Origin: Pseudomonas songnenensis
GTDB lineage: Bacteria; Pseudomonadota; Gammaproteobacteria; Pseudomonadales; Pseudomonadaceae
Direction of reading: 5' to 3'
NCBI RefSeq assembly: GCF_003696315.1
Contig: NZ_RFFN01000003.1
Coordinates: 496,001-560,000, forward strand
Length of the DNA: 64,000 bases
Shown piece after piece: positions 29,943-58,925 of the stretch. Within the stretch, counting starts at the first letter, position 1; each line of letters begins with the position of its first letter. Below the pieces are notes generated by a model that saw only the letters and a program-made list of their open reading frames with translations, was not told where the DNA came from and ran no database searches. A program made the translations under genes and the position numbers.

Positions 29943-30980
29943 TCAGGACAACAGGCTGACCACCGCGAAGCGGCTGATATTGGCCTGCGCCACCACTGTC
30001 TGGGTGACCGCGGCGTAGCTGGAAGGGCTGCGCTGCATCAGGTTGAACACCGAGTGGGAAAAGTCCTTGGCCCACTGCTGCTCGTCGACATCGGCCTGCT
30101 GCGCGAGAAATTCGCGGATCTCGCGCTGGCGCTGACCGAGCTGCTCGCGCAGCGCGCCGACCTTCTCCAGCCCGGCTACCACGGTATCGAGCATACGCCG
30201 CAGTTCGCGCAGCGAATCCAGGGCCGGCTCTTCGGGAAACTTCAGCAGCTGCTCTTCCTGACTCTGCACACGCTGGAAGCGACCCTTGGCAAAGAGCTTA
30301 TCCTCGCCCTGCACCGCCAACTGGCCCTTGAGCTGCTGCCAGTCGCTTTCTCGCGCCGAGAACCTGAGCCGGCCACTGTCATCGAGTTCGGCGCGAATGC
30401 CGGACTGCCCGAGGCTGCCGTTGAAGCGACGCAGGATCTGCTCATCGCTCATGTCGTCATCGAGCACCACTGCCACCGGTTCGGCCAGCTGGCGGCCGCC
30501 ACTGAACAGCAGCGTCTCGCGACCGGACTGGCGAATGGCCTCGAGCGACTCCAGGCCCTGCAGGCTGAAGCGACTGCGCACCGGCTCGCTCAGGCGCAGC
30601 TTCAGCGTGGCATCCAGAGAATTGGCCGAGCGCTTGCTGCGTTCACGCAACAGCTGCTCAACCTCCTGCATGGCATGACGAATCGCATCCGGCCCGGTAT
30701 TCGAGGTCGGCGAGCTGATTTCGCGGCTGAGGCTGAGCTTGAGCTGCGACAGCCGGCCATGCAGGTCATTCAGGTAGCTTTCCGCAGACTGCATGGAAGA
30801 CAGCTGCTGATTGAGCTGCAGGCTGAAGCTGGTGCTCTTCTTGTTGGCGACCTCCGCATGCGCGGTATCGCCCGGCACCGGCAGACGGCGCGATGGCGGC
30901 GGCACGTCGGCAAGCAATGCCTGCCGGCGTTCATGGGGGTTGATGGCGGAGACGGCGGGTAGCGGCTTGCCAATCTTCAT
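29943..30980 (-). CDS. LafW-position flagellar protein, putative hook-associated
   Basis: This 345-residue protein lies directly after flgL (16-nt gap, AGGA ribosome site), the slot occupied by lafW in the E. coli Flag-2 locus. It has no signal peptide or membrane segment. It is rich in helical, coiled-coil-like sequence (for example about residues 100-125 and 255-300) and ends in an amphipathic stretch, SYAAVTQTVVAQANISRF, that resembles the D0 C-terminus of axial proteins. I did not recognise a domain directly. A hook-associated or junction protein, or a secreted substrate of the lateral flagellar exporter, is inferred from position and C-terminus. Confidence 0.6.
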   Translation of the reverse strand: MKIGKPLPAVSAINPHERRQALLADVPPPSRRLPVPGDTAHAEVANKKSTSFSLQLNQQLSSMQSAESYLNDLHGRLSQLKLSLSREISSPTSNTGPDAIRHAMQEVEQLLRERSKRSANSLDATLKLRLSEPVRSRFSLQGLESLEAIRQSGRETLLFSGGRQLAEPVAVVLDDDMSDEQILRRFNGSLGQSGIRAELDDSGRLRFSARESDWQQLKGQLAVQGEDKLFAKGRFQRVQSQEEQLLKFPEEPALDSLRELRRMLDTVVAGLEKVGALREQLGQRQREIREFLAQQADVDEQQWAKDFSHSVFNLMQRSPSSYAAVTQTVVAQANISRFAVVSLLS

Positions 30981-41342: not shown

Positions 41343-41426
41343 CAGGCGAACGCGAATGATAGGAGCCGTGCAAGGGCGCTGAAAGGCCTATTGGGAGCGA
41401 TGGAAAAAAATTTTGGCGCCAGGATT

Positions 41427-41513: not shown

Positions 41514-42350
41514 ATGGCCCTGTCCATTCATACCAACTACTCCTCGCTGATCACTCAGACCAACCTGAGCAAGACCAACAACGCCCTGGGCACCAACCAG
41601 CAGCGCCTGGGCACCGGCCTGCGCATCAACAGCGCCGCCGACGACGCTGCCGGCCTGCAGATCGCCACCCGCCTGAACGCCCAGAGCCGCGGCATGGGCG
41701 TTGCCATGCGCAACACCAACGATGCTGTTTCGCTGCTGCAGACCGCCGAAGGCGCGTTGAACGAGATGACCGACATCGTCCAGCGCATGAAGGATCTGGC
41801 TACTCAGGCCGCGAACGATACGAACAGTGCCGACGACCGCACCGCCATTCAGGCAGAGTTCGATGCTCTAAGCGAAGAAATCACCAACATCTTTGATAAC
41901 ACCAAATATGCAGGGGAAGCGCTGTTCGGTGCCGGCAAATTCGGCGCAGACGCAGTAACCTTCCAGATCGGCGCCTCGACAGCCGAAACCATGGTAGTGG
42001 ACGTTTCCGGTAAAGCAGACGCGCTTGATAGCCTGCTGGGCTCTGACATCTCTACTTTGGACCTGACGACCGCCGCTAACGCTGCAATCGACACCCTAGC
42101 AAGCGCCTTGAATTCCATCGGATCGCTGAGAGCGGATTTTGGCGCCAATATCAACCGCCTGAACCACACCAACAACAACCTGGCCAACATGAAGGACAAC
42201 ACCGAGATGGCCAAGGGTCGCATCATGGATGCCGACTTCGCCTCGGAAAGCGCCAACATGACCAAGAACAGCATGCTGATGCAGTCCGGCATCTCCATGC
42301 TCAAGCAGGCCGGCCAGATGCCGAGCATGGTCATGGGCCTGCTGGGCTGA
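41514..42350 (+). CDS. lafA: Lateral flagellin
   Basis: This is the filament subunit. The 278-residue product has conserved flagellin ends: an N-terminal MALSIHTNYSSLITQTNLSK and GLRINSAADDAAGLQIATRL (about 40-59), and a C-terminal NINRLNHTNNNLANMKDN with MLKQAGQMPSMVMGLLG. The variable central region is very short, as in other lateral flagellins. The start is the ATG at 41514 after GAAGGATTTTCAC; the longer frame is not coding. It is monocistronic, with a strong terminator after it. The symbol lafA is given by analogy to lateral systems. Confidence 0.93.
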   Translation: MALSIHTNYSSLITQTNLSKTNNALGTNQQRLGTGLRINSAADDAAGLQIATRLNAQSRGMGVAMRNTNDAVSLLQTAEGALNEMTDIVQRMKDLATQAANDTNSADDRTAIQAEFDALSEEITNIFDNTKYAGEALFGAGKFGADAVTFQIGASTAETMVVDVSGKADALDSLLGSDISTLDLTTAANAAIDTLASALNSIGSLRADFGANINRLNHTNNNLANMKDNTEMAKGRIMDADFASESANMTKNSMLMQSGISMLKQAGQMPSMVMGLLG

Positions 42351-42392
42351 TGACTGCCGGGTTGGCCTATGGCCGACCCAATCGATACATCC

Positions 42393-42423
42393 AAAAAAGC
42401 CCCGACTGGTTCGGGGCTTTTTT
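42393..42423 (+). terminator. Rho-independent terminator of flagellin gene
   Basis: The sequence AAAAAAGCCCCGA, loop CTGGT, TCGGGGCTTTTTT forms a strong GC stem flanked by A and T runs, about 45 nt after the flagellin stop. It should work in both directions. Confidence 0.92.
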
Positions 42424-42720
42424 GTTATCTCAGTTTTTTCTCATGTCCATCCGACCAACGGCTAGTGATGTCATTTTAACGGCATACAGCTCGCTTAAAT
42501 TCACGCAAACCCTTCTAAACCAAGGCTTTCAGCATCATCGGTCGCTTAGCGAGCCATCACTGTCGGGACAAATGATGGCAAATAGCCATTATTCATGACC
42601 GCTATCACCTTGATTAGTTCCCTTGTAAGTTCAAAATAACGGCGCCAATATACTGCCGACCAGTTCACGGTAAACTTTTGTTCCAGATCACAGATACTTC
42701 CTTTCGCTTCTCAGGGCACC
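42424..42720. other. AT-rich intergenic region upstream of the ToxR-like regulator
   Basis: These roughly 300 bp are clearly richer in A+T than the flanking genes, and I find no credible gene. The region must hold the promoter of the membrane regulator gene, whose start is preceded by CAGGG. No sigma54 or sigma28 element is evident. Confidence 0.5.
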
Positions 42721-43551
42721 ATGACTTCATCTCTGACCATGAAGGCCACCGATGGCACCGTCTGTCCGCTCCTGAAGAGTGGCCGTGACGGCTGCCTGGC
42801 TCGCTTCGATCGCTCGCTCTATCAGCTCTCGCTATCCAACGGCGATGACGTGGAAAAAGTTGACCTCGGCTTCTCCGGGAGCCGCGTTCTGGAGCGCCTG
42901 CTGCAAGTACCTGGCGAGGTCGTTTCCCGCGAGGAGCTGCTCAGCTACGCCTGGCAGGATCGGGTGGTCGGGCAAGGCAGCCTGAACCAGCAGATCTATA
43001 CCCTGCGCCAGGTTCTGGGCGATGCCGACAGCCAGATCATCCAGACGTTGCCGCGTCGGGGCTATCTGTTCAACCCGAACTACCTGGTCAACATCGAGAA
43101 GGCCCCGCTGTCGCCGGTCCCGACAGCTATCGAACAGCCGATCACGGCTCCGGCACAACGCCCACCTCAAATGCCGCAGCGCTCTGCCTGGTTTGCCCCG
43201 ACGATGCTTGGCACTGCGGTAGCACTGTTCCTGGCATGTGTCGCCCTGGGTTACCGCTTCATGCATGCGCCCAAGGGTTCGCTGACCTATACCCATTCCA
43301 TCGGCCAGCTCGAAGTGCTGTACGTGGAAAAGAGCCAGCAGATGCTCGACCGGATGATGCAGGAAACCCGCCTGCTGGTAGCCAGCGTTGCCGGCATGAG
43401 TTCGCGGCCGGGTCGCCTGATCGTGAACATGTCACCGGGCTTCTATGAGCTGCGCTGCCTGCAAAACGATGGCCGGATCAACTGGCTGAAGGTTCACCGC
43501 AGCCAGGTGAACGCTATTCCGAATGAAACACTGCAAGGATGTCTGCGATGA
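42721..43551 (+). CDS. lafZ: ToxR-like membrane-anchored transcription regulator (LafZ-type)
   Basis: This 276-residue protein combines a cytoplasmic OmpR/PhoB-type winged helix (about 45-118; REELLSYAWQDRVVGQGSLN and TLPRRGYLFN), a proline-rich linker (about 130-155), one membrane segment (about 159-180, APTMLGTAVALFLACVALGY) and a 95-residue periplasmic domain. That domain holds two cysteines, Cys246 and Cys274, as in ToxR. A transmembrane regulator (LafZ) occupies the similar place before flagellin in E. coli Flag-2. It is followed by an overlapping small gene whose product could be a ToxS-like partner. Regulation of lateral flagella by an envelope signal is inferred. Confidence 0.82.
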   Translation: MTSSLTMKATDGTVCPLLKSGRDGCLARFDRSLYQLSLSNGDDVEKVDLGFSGSRVLERLLQVPGEVVSREELLSYAWQDRVVGQGSLNQQIYTLRQVLGDADSQIIQTLPRRGYLFNPNYLVNIEKAPLSPVPTAIEQPITAPAQRPPQMPQRSAWFAPTMLGTAVALFLACVALGYRFMHAPKGSLTYTHSIGQLEVLYVEKSQQMLDRMMQETRLLVASVAGMSSRPGRLIVNMSPGFYELRCLQNDGRINWLKVHRSQVNAIPNETLQGCLR

Positions 43552-44030
43552 ATGCTTCTTTCGAAACCGGCACGGCGAGCAAGCGCCTGCTGCGCGTGAT
43601 GGTGCCGACTGCGCTGGCGTTATGGGCCTTCGTTGCGATGGGTACCACCACCAACTACAGCGCCAACCTCGATGGTCGGTATTCCTCTACCGGCCAGGTA
43701 TTGCTTAGCAATGGTCAATTGGTACAGGTCAGTCAGAGCGTGGTGTTCAATGATGGGCGCTTTTATTCGATGACGCGCAACAGCCCGGCCATCGTGGAGG
43801 CATCCGGCCGCGTCGAAACGGACTTTCTCGGCCGCGCCCGGCTGGTGGTGGAAGAAGGCCAGATCAGCGGGATCGCCGGCACCGACGAACTGGACGAAGA
43901 GCTGATCTTCAACCTGTTCTATGGCAAGCACAAAGGCGCCCGCATCACCCTGGAAGAGGTGGGTGCCTGCCTTTACGGCGTCGAGACCCAGCAGGTCTAC
44001 TGCGCCGAACCGGCGGTGGCCCAGCTCTGA
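43548..44030 (+). CDS. Single-pass membrane/periplasmic protein, possible ToxS-like partner of the regulator
   Basis: This 160-residue protein starts at the ATG at 43548, which overlaps the regulator stop (ATGA) and has AAGGATG upstream. It has one N-terminal membrane or signal segment (about 14-31, LLRVMVPTALALWAFVAMG) followed by a periplasmic beta-rich domain. Two cysteines lie near the C-terminus (Cys141, Cys152). I recognise no family. The layout, a membrane winged-helix regulator followed by a small coupled periplasmic protein, copies ToxR/ToxS and TcpP/TcpH. A stabilising or sensing role is therefore a reasonable but untested inference. Confidence 0.75.
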   Translation: MNASFETGTASKRLLRVMVPTALALWAFVAMGTTTNYSANLDGRYSSTGQVLLSNGQLVQVSQSVVFNDGRFYSMTRNSPAIVEASGRVETDFLGRARLVVEEGQISGIAGTDELDEELIFNLFYGKHKGARITLEEVGACLYGVETQQVYCAEPAVAQL

Positions 44031-44034
44031 CAAC

Positions 44035-44062
44035 CCCGCTGCGCCAGACAACCTGCAGCGGG
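44035..44062. terminator. Hairpin between convergent regulator operon and motB
   Basis: An 8-bp perfect stem, CCCGCTGC with GCAGCGGG (44035-44042 and 44055-44062), with a 12-nt loop lies in the 54-nt gap between two convergent genes. There is no T-run, so termination is only likely from position. Confidence 0.4.
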
Positions 44063-44084
44063 CGCGCAGCCACACGCGTTGCAA

Positions 44085-45023
44085 TCAGATTTCGTCGGAC
44101 TCAGGAGCGCTGTAGCTCGCGCCCTTCTCGGTGAAGCGCACCTTGCCGTAGCTGTCGCCGAACAATTCCTTGTACAGGTTCTCCGCCGAGTCGGTCAGCA
44201 GGAGAATCTCCACCCGTCGATTGGCTCCGTCTTCCGGTGCATCCGGACGCAGCGGCATGACATCCGCCTGCGCAGTCACTTGCAGCACCGAGCGGCCCGG
44301 CAGGCCGGCACTCACCAGCACATTGCGCGCACGCAAGGCGCGATCGCCGGAAAGATTCCAGTTGTCATAGCCCGATTGCAGCCGGTAAGGCGTGGCATCG
44401 GTGTGGCCGCTGATGATCAGCTTGTTCTCGACCTTGGCCAGTACACCGGCAAGCACACCGAGCAACCGGGCGAAGTGCGGGTTGAGCACGGCACTGCCGC
44501 GCTGGAACATGAAGCGCTGCTGGTCGTCCTTGATCAGGATGCGCAGGCCCTGGGGCACCACGTCCACTTCCAGATTGGCCAGCGCATCGACCTGCCCGGC
44601 CACTTCCTGCATCAACGCTGCCAGCGCCTGCAACTCGGCCGTCGAGGCATAGCGGCGGCTGCCTTCCTCGGGCAACTCCCCGGCGGCACGATCGCTCTCG
44701 ACACGCCGACGCTCGGGTTCATCCTCATTGCGCGCCTGCCGCACTGGTACGCCATCGAGCTCCAGCGGCGAGGTGCTGGTGCCGTCGAAAATGCCGGCAC
44801 CGCCATCGACCAGGGGATTGCTTTCCTCATCGCCGAATGCCGGATTGGTCAGGTTCATCTGCGGCTGAATGATCCACAGGACCATGAACAGCGCCATCAT
44901 CGCCAGGGTGAAGTCGGCGAAAGCCACCTTCCAGGCGCCACCGTGCTCATCGCCGTGACCCTTCTTGGTCCGGCGGCGGACGATGATCTCGTGCTCGTTG
45001 CCGCTCTTGCCTCGGCTCTTCAT
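44085..45023 (-). CDS. motB: Flagellar motor protein MotB (lateral stator, LafU-like)
   Basis: MotB is the peptidoglycan-anchored stator subunit. The 312-residue product has one membrane helix (about 34-53, AFADFTLAMMALFMVLW). The proton-binding Asp37 is in FADFTLAMM, which points to a proton-driven motor. A C-terminal OmpA-like domain carries ISGHTDATPY. The longer frame lies inside motA, so I use the ATG at 45023, which overlaps the motA stop. It is the last gene of the fliD operon. Confidence 0.94.
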   Translation of the reverse strand: MKSRGKSGNEHEIIVRRRTKKGHGDEHGGAWKVAFADFTLAMMALFMVLWIIQPQMNLTNPAFGDEESNPLVDGGAGIFDGTSTSPLELDGVPVRQARNEDEPERRRVESDRAAGELPEEGSRRYASTAELQALAALMQEVAGQVDALANLEVDVVPQGLRILIKDDQQRFMFQRGSAVLNPHFARLLGVLAGVLAKVENKLIISGHTDATPYRLQSGYDNWNLSGDRALRARNVLVSAGLPGRSVLQVTAQADVMPLRPDAPEDGANRRVEILLLTDSAENLYKELFGDSYGKVRFTEKGASYSAPESDEI

Positions 45024-45892
45024 GCCGCGTCCCTTTCTTCCTCGTACTGGTTGACCCAGACCTCGAGTTGACGGAAGGCCGGCTTGACGTCCTGCTCGAT
45101 CAGCTTGCGGCCGGCGTCGACCGCCAGCAGCGTCGGCTTGCCGGCCAGATGCGCGACCAACGTGGTGCGCACGCATTCAAGCGCCGACAGCTCGGTCTTG
45201 ACCCGCTGGCCCATGGCGTTGGAGAGCGGCTCCATCAGGCAGTAGCAGAAGAAGATGCCGAGAAAGGTACCGACCAGCGCCGCGGCCACATGGGCGCCGA
45301 TCTCGGCGACGCTACCGCCGATGCTGCCCATGGTGATGATGATGCCCATGATCGCCGCCAGGATGCCGAACCCCGGCATCGCCTCACCGATCTTGAACAG
45401 CGAACGCGACGGCTGCAGCAGCGCATGCTCCATCGCCTCGAGTTCCTGCTCGAGGAAGCCCTCGAGCTCGTGGGCGGTGATCTTGCCCATGGCCATCAGG
45501 CGGAAGTTGTCGGCGATGAACGCCATCAGGTTCTTTTCCTTGAGGATCAGCGGGTAGCGTGCAAACAGCTCGCTCTGCTCCGGCTCCTCGATATGCGAGT
45601 CGAGCACCTTGAGGCCGCCCACATCGACCATTTCCAGCAGCTCATAGAGCAGCATCAGCAGCTGGCGCTGGAACTCCTCGCCACGGCGTTCGTAGATGAA
45701 CACGCCGCGGATCTGCGAAAGCATTTCCACCAGCACTTCCTTGGGATTGCCGACCACCAGGCTGCCGATCGCGGCGCCGAGGATGATCACGATCTCCGCG
45801 GGCTGCCAGAGCACCCGCATGTCGCCGTTGGCCATGGCGTAGCCGCCCAGCACGCAACCGATGATGATGAACGCACCTAATACTTTCTGCAT
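45020..45892 (-). CDS. motA: Flagellar motor protein MotA (lateral stator, LafT-like)
   Basis: MotA forms the stator ring with MotB. The 290-residue product has helices at about residues 4-20, 30-50, 170-190 and 200-222. The conserved motif GIMGIIITMGSIGG is seen here as LAAIMGIIITMGSIGGSVAE. The cytoplasmic loop carries charged residues for FliG contact (about 85-160). It lies between fliA (4-nt gap) and motB (4-nt overlap), as lafS-lafT-lafU do in lateral systems. Confidence 0.95.
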   Translation of the reverse strand: MQKVLGAFIIIGCVLGGYAMANGDMRVLWQPAEIVIILGAAIGSLVVGNPKEVLVEMLSQIRGVFIYERRGEEFQRQLLMLLYELLEMVDVGGLKVLDSHIEEPEQSELFARYPLILKEKNLMAFIADNFRLMAMGKITAHELEGFLEQELEAMEHALLQPSRSLFKIGEAMPGFGILAAIMGIIITMGSIGGSVAEIGAHVAAALVGTFLGIFFCYCLMEPLSNAMGQRVKTELSALECVRTTLVAHLAGKPTLLAVDAGRKLIEQDVKPAFRQLEVWVNQYEEERDAA

Positions 45893-45896
45893 GACG

Positions 45897-46631
45897 TTAC
45901 TGACTTCTCTCGGTTAAAAAGCGACAGGCCTTGCCGATCGCCTGCTTGCTCAACTGACAGACCCTGGCGTCGCTGACTTCCAGCACCAGGGCGATTTCCT
46001 TGAGGCTCAATTCGTGCTGGTAGTACAGCGTCAGCACCAGTCGCTCGCGCTCGTCCAGCCGGCTCAACGCCTGCTCCAGCAGACGCTCCTTGAGCAGCCG
46101 CTCCTCGAACAGCTCCGCCGTGTCGGGGAAGTGCTCATGGCCGCTCTGCAGCAGCTCGTCCAGGCTCTCGATGGCCTCGGACGAATCGGCCCAGAGGAAG
46201 GCCTGGTAATCCTTTTCATCCAGCCCGGTAAACGTCTTGATCTCCTCGTCACTTGGGCTGTGGCCCAGCTGGCGGGTGAGTTCACGAATCGCGTCGCGCA
46301 CCTTGTGCGCCTGCTGCCGGACCTGACGCGGGCGCCAATCCTGCCGGCGCAGCTCGTCGAGGATGGCGCCGCGGATGCGCAACGCGGCGAAGCGCCCGAA
46401 CTGCTCGTCCGGTTCGCCGTAGCGACGCAGGCCTTCGAGCAGCCCGATCATGCCGATCTGCTCCATGTCCTCGCGGTCGAGCACCTGATTCGCCTGCAAC
46501 GAAAGCTGCCGCACGATGCGCTTGACCAGCGGCAGGTACTGCATCAGCCAGCGCTGCTCGGCGCCCGGTGCGAATAGCGCAGGGCTGGCCGGGCTGGCGC
46601 CGTAGTAGTCGACGGAACAGGTGGCGTTCAT
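45897..46631 (-). CDS. fliA: Flagellar sigma28 factor FliA (LafS-like)
   Basis: FliA is the RNA polymerase sigma factor for late flagellar genes. The 244-residue product has region 2 (about 28-95, LPLVKRIVRQLSLQANQVLD and QIGMIGLLEGLRRY), region 3 (about 100-140) and region 4 (about 180-235, LTLYYQHELSLKEIALVLEV). It lies within the sigma54-driven fliD operon, so it would be made after LafK acts. The cluster encodes its own FlgM. Confidence 0.95.
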   Translation of the reverse strand: MNATCSVDYYGASPASPALFAPGAEQRWLMQYLPLVKRIVRQLSLQANQVLDREDMEQIGMIGLLEGLRRYGEPDEQFGRFAALRIRGAILDELRRQDWRPRQVRQQAHKVRDAIRELTRQLGHSPSDEEIKTFTGLDEKDYQAFLWADSSEAIESLDELLQSGHEHFPDTAELFEERLLKERLLEQALSRLDERERLVLTLYYQHELSLKEIALVLEVSDARVCQLSKQAIGKACRFLTERSQ

Positions 46632-50277: not shown

Positions 50278-50293
50278 AGCAAGTTGAGTGCCA
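50278..50293 (-). promoter_or_regulatory. Sigma54 (-24/-12) promoter of the fliD-to-motB operon
   Basis: On the minus strand TGGCACTCAACTTGCT is a nearly perfect sigma54 promoter. It has GG (-24) at 50292-50291, GC (-12) at 50280-50279, and exactly 10 nt between. The predicted start near 50267 leaves a short leader of about 17 nt with the ribosome site. Confidence 0.88.
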
Positions 50294-57110: not shown

Positions 57111-58490
<1,380 letters not shown>

Positions 58491-58925
58491 TGCCTGACTG
58501 ATACTCTTCAATGTGACCACCTTGCCCTTCCGGTATTGGCCGCGCTGCAAATGAGCGCGACACCAGAAACAAGCGAAAGAAAAAAGATTTAATTTTCCGG
58601 AACTGAGTGCCGCCTTCTGCATGGCAACTTCGCTGTCGAAGCGATTTACCCAACGACACTTCCCGAACAAGTGCGCGCACGCTATCAGGACGCCGGATCA
58701 ACTCCCCAATCAGTTCTGCTTAATTGAAATCAACCGATGCCTGATCAGCTCAAAAAAGCTCATTTGATATCTCTTGATTTAACCCCCTCACGCGCCCAGG
58801 CCTAGGATGGCGGCACGCTAGAGCCGTGCCCGGAAGAACACCCGCGCCAGCCAGCCAATCATCTGCACGCACGGCCAACGGCAGCGCCACCGTGTTAACC
58901 GACCCCAGGAAATACAGTTCACAAC
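58491..58925. other. Divergent control region between lafK and fliM
   Basis: These 435 bp hold no gene that I can support. The region is relatively AT-rich (58690-58790) and must carry promoters for the lafK and fliM operons. I see a 6-bp inverted repeat GGCACG/CGTGCC (58812-58817 and 58825-58830) but no good sigma54 or sigma28 site, which fits early genes read by the main sigma factor. Confidence 0.5.

Follow-up and report, generated by a model that had tools for sequence, protein, structure and literature searches.

Positions 42,721–44,030 of a 64,000-nucleotide stretch of the Pseudomonas songnenensis genome (contig NZ_RFFN01000003.1, positions 496,001–560,000; hereafter the window) encode a membrane-anchored winged-helix regulator and, in an overlapping frame, a small periplasmic partner protein. 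The two genes lie in a lateral flagellar locus, and we put the probability at roughly 70% that they form a co-component system of the VtrA/VtrC or ToxR/ToxS type that gates lateral flagellar genes by a periplasmic signal. By its architecture the pair belongs to the co-component systems that are already known; its lineage is new, as its role would be. Such systems have been described mainly as enteric virulence cassettes, and the text of the paper that does so contains no word beginning with 'flagell' (PMC9214523). Among the papers listed by a literature search, with most subscription papers outside its reach, none describes a partner of the ToxS kind within a lateral flagellar locus. If our reading is correct, co-component systems extend from enteric virulence to a role in motility, in environmental bacteria. 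What leads cells on surfaces to invest in a second and costly flagellar system is an open question, and few candidates exist for the periplasmic side of this decision. With its two genes the pair is a candidate sensor; 76 of the 81 lateral loci in the family sample have it, and natural regulator-only and truncated variants allow comparison.

Architecture of the two proteins

Pfam matches and an AlphaFold2 model give the regulator the layout known from regulators of VtrA/VtrC-like systems: a winged helix is followed by one membrane helix and a folded C-terminal periplasmic domain. Residues 46–117 match Trans_reg_C (PF00486; E = 1.5e-13), and the nearest solved structure to this DNA-binding domain in a structure search is ToxR. 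A profile search against PDB sequences returns matches to the DNA-binding domain and, at E = 0.8, a single unrelated entry. Some homologues are named CadC family in their source annotations. The membrane helix is predicted at residues 161–181. The model of the periplasmic domain is confident, with a mean predicted local distance difference test (pLDDT) score above 90 for each block between residue 191 and the end, and its order of elements in the model agrees with the β2-α-β3-α core of VtrA/VtrC-like regulators; the lists returned for the whole regulator by the structure search are filled by the DNA-binding domain. C246, which the model places in a strand, and C274 are invariant in all 67 aligned sequences (the window included) and in 59 of 59 loci.

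Beyond a predicted N-terminal helix (residues 9–32), the partner is modelled as β-rich and is predicted to fold into an eight-stranded barrel, for which ToxS and VtrC are among the best solved matches in a structure search. Its two cysteines, C141 and C152, occur without exception in the 82 aligned sequences and are conserved in 58 of 59 loci. They are 11 residues apart and fall in the last two strands of the predicted barrel. The longest open reading frame of the partner begins at 43539, upstream of the ATG at 43548. All 14 aligned sequences (the window and 13 relatives) share the methionine at 43548, and one further relative (L014) has an in-frame stop just before it, between the two ATGs, so the ATGA overlap with the regulator (43548–43551) is the likely start. 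A preliminary description of this region, made from the sequence alone, had proposed this overlap, a membrane-anchored winged-helix regulator with two periplasmic cysteines, a small single-pass periplasmic partner with two cysteines and no known family, and a likeness of the pair to ToxR/ToxS; all four points agree with the conservation, the domain matches and the models.

For the partner of the window, all Pfam and NCBIfam matches fall below the family cut-offs: there are only TMEM100 (E = 0.02–0.03, 15 bits where 34 are required) and a biotin ligase (E = 0.18, 11 bits where 311 are required), and both were rejected. Weak family matches are scattered among the 82 aligned partners, each in at most eight of them; the best are V-ATPase subunit f-like (E = 0.00055, 8/82) and thiol peroxidase (E = 0.0027). 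All of them, listed without family cut-offs, are taken as chance or membrane-helix matches. The partner profile finds nothing related among PDB sequences (best E = 0.52). The ToxS family (PF17323) has no candidate at E = 10 in the whole genome, 14 control genomes giving one match that is below the cut-off, and it is absent from the Pfam matches of the window partner (to E = 1) and of the 82 members (to E = 5). For FidL_like (PF15941) four candidates were scored in the whole genome, none at E = 10, and four control genomes match, none over the cut-off; this family too is absent from the Pfam matches of the window partner and the 82 aligned members.

Conservation and linkage to the lateral flagellar locus

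The surrounding genes identify a Flag-2-type lateral flagellar cluster, as a LafK-type activator, a LafW-like protein and a dedicated set of FliA and motor genes occur together. A gene for the LafW-like protein follows flgL, then come flg genes, lafA and the pair, and on the opposite strand motB, motA and a gene for a FliA-type sigma factor, on to fliD. The same order was found elsewhere by tblastn with the window proteins. Among 58 relatives, 16 genomes have the partner; all of them, the own genome included, belong to the 37 genomes of the window's genus, which named relatives identify as Stutzerimonas. At these 16 loci the regulator always directly precedes the partner and motB always follows it; lafA comes before the pair in 15, the contig of the remaining locus (L007) ending there.

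For the family as a whole, 398 Pseudomonadaceae genomes were drawn evenly. The partner profile matches 78 of them, in seven genera. The regulator profile matches 107 at E = 1e-20. Of these matches, the 84 that score 159 bits or more form the regulator set; the weaker ones (at most 145.6 bits) were excluded, and we interpret them as different membrane regulators. Each of the 78 partner genes comes immediately 3' of a regulator gene from this set and in the same orientation, and of the 84 regulators 78 are paired in this way, an adjacency that is more than chance. Lateral motA is present in 81 genomes, with a clean separation (every match at E = 3.0e-156 or better for a limit of 1e-70). The pair tracks these loci: a regulator is found at 81/81, with the partner in 76 and without it in five. 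Two partners occur among the 317 genomes that lack lateral motA. Fisher's test for partner against lateral motA gives 7.7e-73, which is not a true probability since the genomes are related. In all 76 genomes that have both, the partner is convergent with motA at a gap of 0.9–5.7 kb (median about 1.0 kb).

When 49 pair loci were viewed with wider flanks (L060–L079 and L101–L129; L079 is from the same genus as the window), motB was near in 47, the exceptions being L068 and L129, and lafA came before the pair in 19/20 and 27/29 of the two groups, in one case as fragments only. One of these loci (L066) has an insertion of about 4.7 kb between motB and the partner gene, and in four (L064, L070, L106 and L108) three tandem lateral flagellin matches stand ahead of the regulator. 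The distance correlation of the partner with the regulator's periplasmic domain is 0.914 and with fliA 0.912; the partial correlation with the partner is 0.51 for the periplasmic domain and 0.39 for the DNA-binding domain, which weakly suggests a link between partner and periplasmic domain. Across the class, the partner search returned the own genome out of 369, although diverged partners could escape it. Lateral motA at the same limit, which will miss diverged lateral motors, was found in two of 345 genomes, the own one and G692, where the locus gives no regulator or partner match.

Partner and periplasmic domain are also lost together. In genomes G072 (L081) and G087 (L082) the regulator of the lateral locus stops just past the membrane helix and there is no partner, and the same holds for a regulator without periplasmic domain outside a lateral locus (G131), so that the partner is absent in 3/3 such cases. 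In G072 the regulator is followed by a short stretch that still matches the periplasmic domain (45% over 31 residues, E = 0.001), and the domain has therefore been lost there. Three further genomes (G259, L080; G150, L083; G162, L084) have a regulator with periplasmic domain and both cysteines and neither a partner gene nor a clear remnant of one; the regulator can thus do without its partner in some lineages. All five partner-less lateral loci keep motA, motB and lafA matches. In G159 (L068/L132) and G095 (L129), two genomes without lateral motA, the pair occurs outside any lateral locus.

Profile matches of lower score revealed sister pairs of Pseudomonas in L086, L087, L094 and L098 with no flagellar gene match near them. 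Of the six pairs, two are in G303, two in G285 and one each in G231 and G286. Two of the loci are tandem arrays of two pairs: L086 (5762–10079; G303), where the pairs flank an EAL-domain gene of the cyclic di-GMP phosphodiesterase type, and L087 (6466–9892). Six sister partners and three lateral ones share G43, G49, G95, N122, Y125, C141, Y143, E146 and C152 in nine of nine aligned sequences, with the signature N-x2-Y and C-x-Y-x2-E-x5-C. A cysteine a few codons from the stop closes five of the six sister regulators, whose genes overlap the partner frame by four or 13 bases; the sixth (G231) is shorter and ends earlier. A detached Pseudomonas cluster of VtrC-like sequences has been mentioned by Kinch and coworkers (PMC9214523).

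Proposed mechanism and alternative explanations

In the mechanism that we propose, the regulator would be anchored in the inner membrane, its winged helix facing the cytoplasm, and its small periplasmic domain would pair with the partner barrel, the overlapping frames allowing both proteins to be made together. A periplasmic condition, perhaps a ligand bound by the barrel or a change in how the two cysteine pairs are oxidized or folded, would alter the stability or the dimer state of the regulator. The regulator would then act on lateral flagellar promoters, most likely those of lafA and of its own gene. Architecture, overlap, conservation, linkage to the lateral locus and joint loss are observed and both folds are predicted; the complex, its target promoters, the signal and the sign of regulation we infer. 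The preliminary description had suggested that the pair may couple envelope, redox or surface signals to lateral flagella, a reading that the analysis supports. In a more specific version, which we put forward tentatively, the partner serves as a dedicated periplasmic receptor: a small hydrophobic or envelope-derived molecule would bind in its barrel, or the barrel would respond to the redox state of the envelope. Through the membrane-bound regulator it would give Pseudomonadaceae a third input, beside LafK and LafS, for deciding on surface lateral flagella. The pair would then represent co-component systems outside enteric virulence, and a wider clade of such pairs in Pseudomonadaceae would include it as one branch.

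The known systems differ from the pair in detail. In Vibrio parahaemolyticus, VtrA/VtrC link bile acid, which VtrC binds in its barrel, to the control of a type III secretion system (PMC9214523). This barrel has the fold predicted for our partner, but VtrA is without a disulfide (PMC9214523), whereas a cysteine pair is conserved here in both proteins. In ToxR of V. cholerae, C236 from a helix bonds to C293 near the C-terminus (PMC8359183), while C246 is predicted to lie in a strand. ToxR/ToxS are also an exception without frame overlap (PMC9214523), in contrast to the ATGA overlap here, and their role is in virulence, whereas for our pair we propose lateral flagella. The partner shares its predicted fold with ToxS without matching the Pfam family of that name. 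The FidL/YqeJ/BprQ group resembles our pair in having a cysteine-bearing partner downstream of a cysteine-bearing membrane regulator; its disulfide, however, joins the N- and C-terminal strands (PMC9214523), while both cysteines of our partner are predicted in the last two strands and FidL_like is unmatched. CadC has a winged helix, a membrane helix and a periplasmic sensor in the same order, but is a one-component regulator with a second, helical periplasmic domain (PMC9214523) that is absent here.

Within Flag-2 loci the closest counterpart is LafZ of Escherichia coli, and it is possible, though rather unlikely, that our regulator is its orthologue, one-component by origin, to which the partner was added in Pseudomonadaceae. 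This would be compatible with the co-component reading and differ from it mostly in history. Both are winged-helix membrane regulators beside lafA, their profiles match with 97.7% probability over 101 columns, and regulators without a partner do exist. LafZ too has a C-terminal cysteine and one earlier cysteine in its periplasmic part, with no partner gene (L100, 5605–6447, minus strand). The profile match, however, covers the DNA-binding domain and stops short of the periplasmic domain, and place and direction differ. We call the E. coli regulator LafZ by its place, which is between lafW and lafA (PMC6993521). In two E. coli Flag-2 records it lies there on the strand opposite to lafA, not between lafA and lafU as here, which corrects the preliminary description, where LafZ had been put at the position of our regulator. 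Fewer than 60 bases separate it from the convergent LafW gene, so there is no room for a partner gene. In keeping with the preliminary description, which knew of no described ToxS-like partner, neither record has a partner gene and the papers listed by the literature search report none.

Doubts may also concern what the partner does and what the regulator controls. That the partner is a chaperone or anti-protease for the regulator and senses nothing is a narrower form of the co-component reading that we consider doubtful. DegS and DegP are the main proteases that cut ToxR, and ToxS stabilizes it (PMC8359183), TcpH is reported to inhibit proteolysis of TcpP (PMC11323476) and the predicted fold of the partner is that of ToxS; on the other hand, VtrC binds a bile acid in the same type of barrel (PMC9214523). 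A structural or motor-associated periplasmic flagellar protein whose gene merely overlaps that of the regulator seems very improbable. The partner gene does lie in the interval from lafA to lafU, and genomes without lateral motA rarely have it, but it keeps its place behind the regulator away from flagellar loci (G095 and G159), is missing where the regulator lacks a periplasmic domain (3/3) and at five lateral loci that retain motA, motB and lafA matches, and has regulator-linked sister proteins elsewhere. The same two pairs outside lateral loci, together with the sister pairs that have no flagellar matches, would fit a genuine co-component system whose targets are not lateral flagellar genes, the locus having moved or grown around it. 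We hold this to be improbable, as 76 of the 78 partners are convergent with lateral motA and a chance neighbour would hardly be expected to track the locus through seven genera.

Features of the region and upstream DNA

Table 1. Positions in the window of the pair, its sequence elements and the neighbouring lateral flagellar genes.
Feature	Position	Strand	Basis
Regulator, membrane-anchored winged-helix, 276 amino acids, ToxR/VtrA-like component	42721..43551	+	Open reading frame; Trans_reg_C; 15 aligned sequences including the window
Winged-helix DNA-binding domain, regulator residues 46–117	42856..43071	+	
Predicted transmembrane helix, regulator residues 161–181	43201..43263	+	AlphaFold2 model; hydrophobic sequence
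Predicted periplasmic domain of regulator, β2-α-α-β3-α-α	43264..43548	+	Model; cysteine conservation
Regulator cysteine codons C246 and C274	43456–43458; 43540–43542	+	
Partner, single-pass periplasmic, 160 amino acids, ToxS/VtrC-like component	43548..44030	+	Open reading frame; invariant methionine; L014 stop; fold
In-frame upstream ATG, two-base overlap with regulator C274 codon, probably not the start	43539..43541	+	Sequence; L014 stop
Predicted N-terminal membrane helix, partner residues 9–32	43572..43643	+	Model
Predicted lipocalin-like barrel, partner residues 43–153, eight strands	43674..44006	+	Model; fold matches; cysteine conservation
Partner cysteine codons C141 and C152	43968–43970; 44001–44003	+	
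Conserved block upstream of regulator, CTTGTA-NN-ATCAAAAAAACGGCGCCAATATGCCGCCG, promoter and/or operator candidate	42622..42658	+	14 aligned upstream regions
AAAATTTTGGCGCCA in lafA promoter region	41407..41421	+	Pattern AAAA-N4-GRCGYCA, as at 42633–42647
lafA, lateral flagellin	41514..42350	+	Flagellin_N, Flagellin_C
lafU (motB), convergent with partner	44085..45071	-	OmpA, MotB_plug
lafT (motA), marker of lateral locus	45020..45892	-	MotA_N, MotA_ExbB
lafS, FliA-type sigma factor	45897..46631	-	Sigma70 regions 2, 3 and 4
lafK-like sigma-54-dependent activator	57111..58670	-	Sigma54_activat, E = 8.2e-68
lafW-like protein after flgL, Flag-2 hallmark	29943..30980	-	24% identity to E. coli Flag-2 protein at the same place, E = 6e-11 (single comparison)

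The LafW-like protein matches no Pfam family. Names such as fliL, fliS and flgB–D for other window genes are our assignments, made largely by position.

The consensus of the conserved block upstream of the regulator is a majority one, with invariant and variable positions. The pattern that it shares with the site before lafA has two matches in the window (at 41407 before lafA and at 42633 before the regulator) against 0.09 expected, the pattern having been chosen after both were seen, and we treat it as a lead. Other loci only partly preserve, upstream of lafA, the A/T tract and a core of similar sequence. The lafA site lies just upstream of a conserved TTTAA...GTCGCC element, which we take to be the sigma-28-type promoter. 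Derivation of a regulon from the motif was abandoned: the own genome gives 13 matches and the reversed control four, and of the 11 outside the lateral locus seven fall inside long mechanically called reading frames and four do not. A scan of 42300–44200 for sigma-70 promoters and terminators gave no more than chance, and the sigma-54 pattern with two mismatches allowed is not in excess in the window (30 found, 43 expected). A perfect sigma-54-type site, TGGCACTCAACTTGCT (50278–50293, minus strand), is present a short way upstream of fliD and is consistent with LafK control of that operon.
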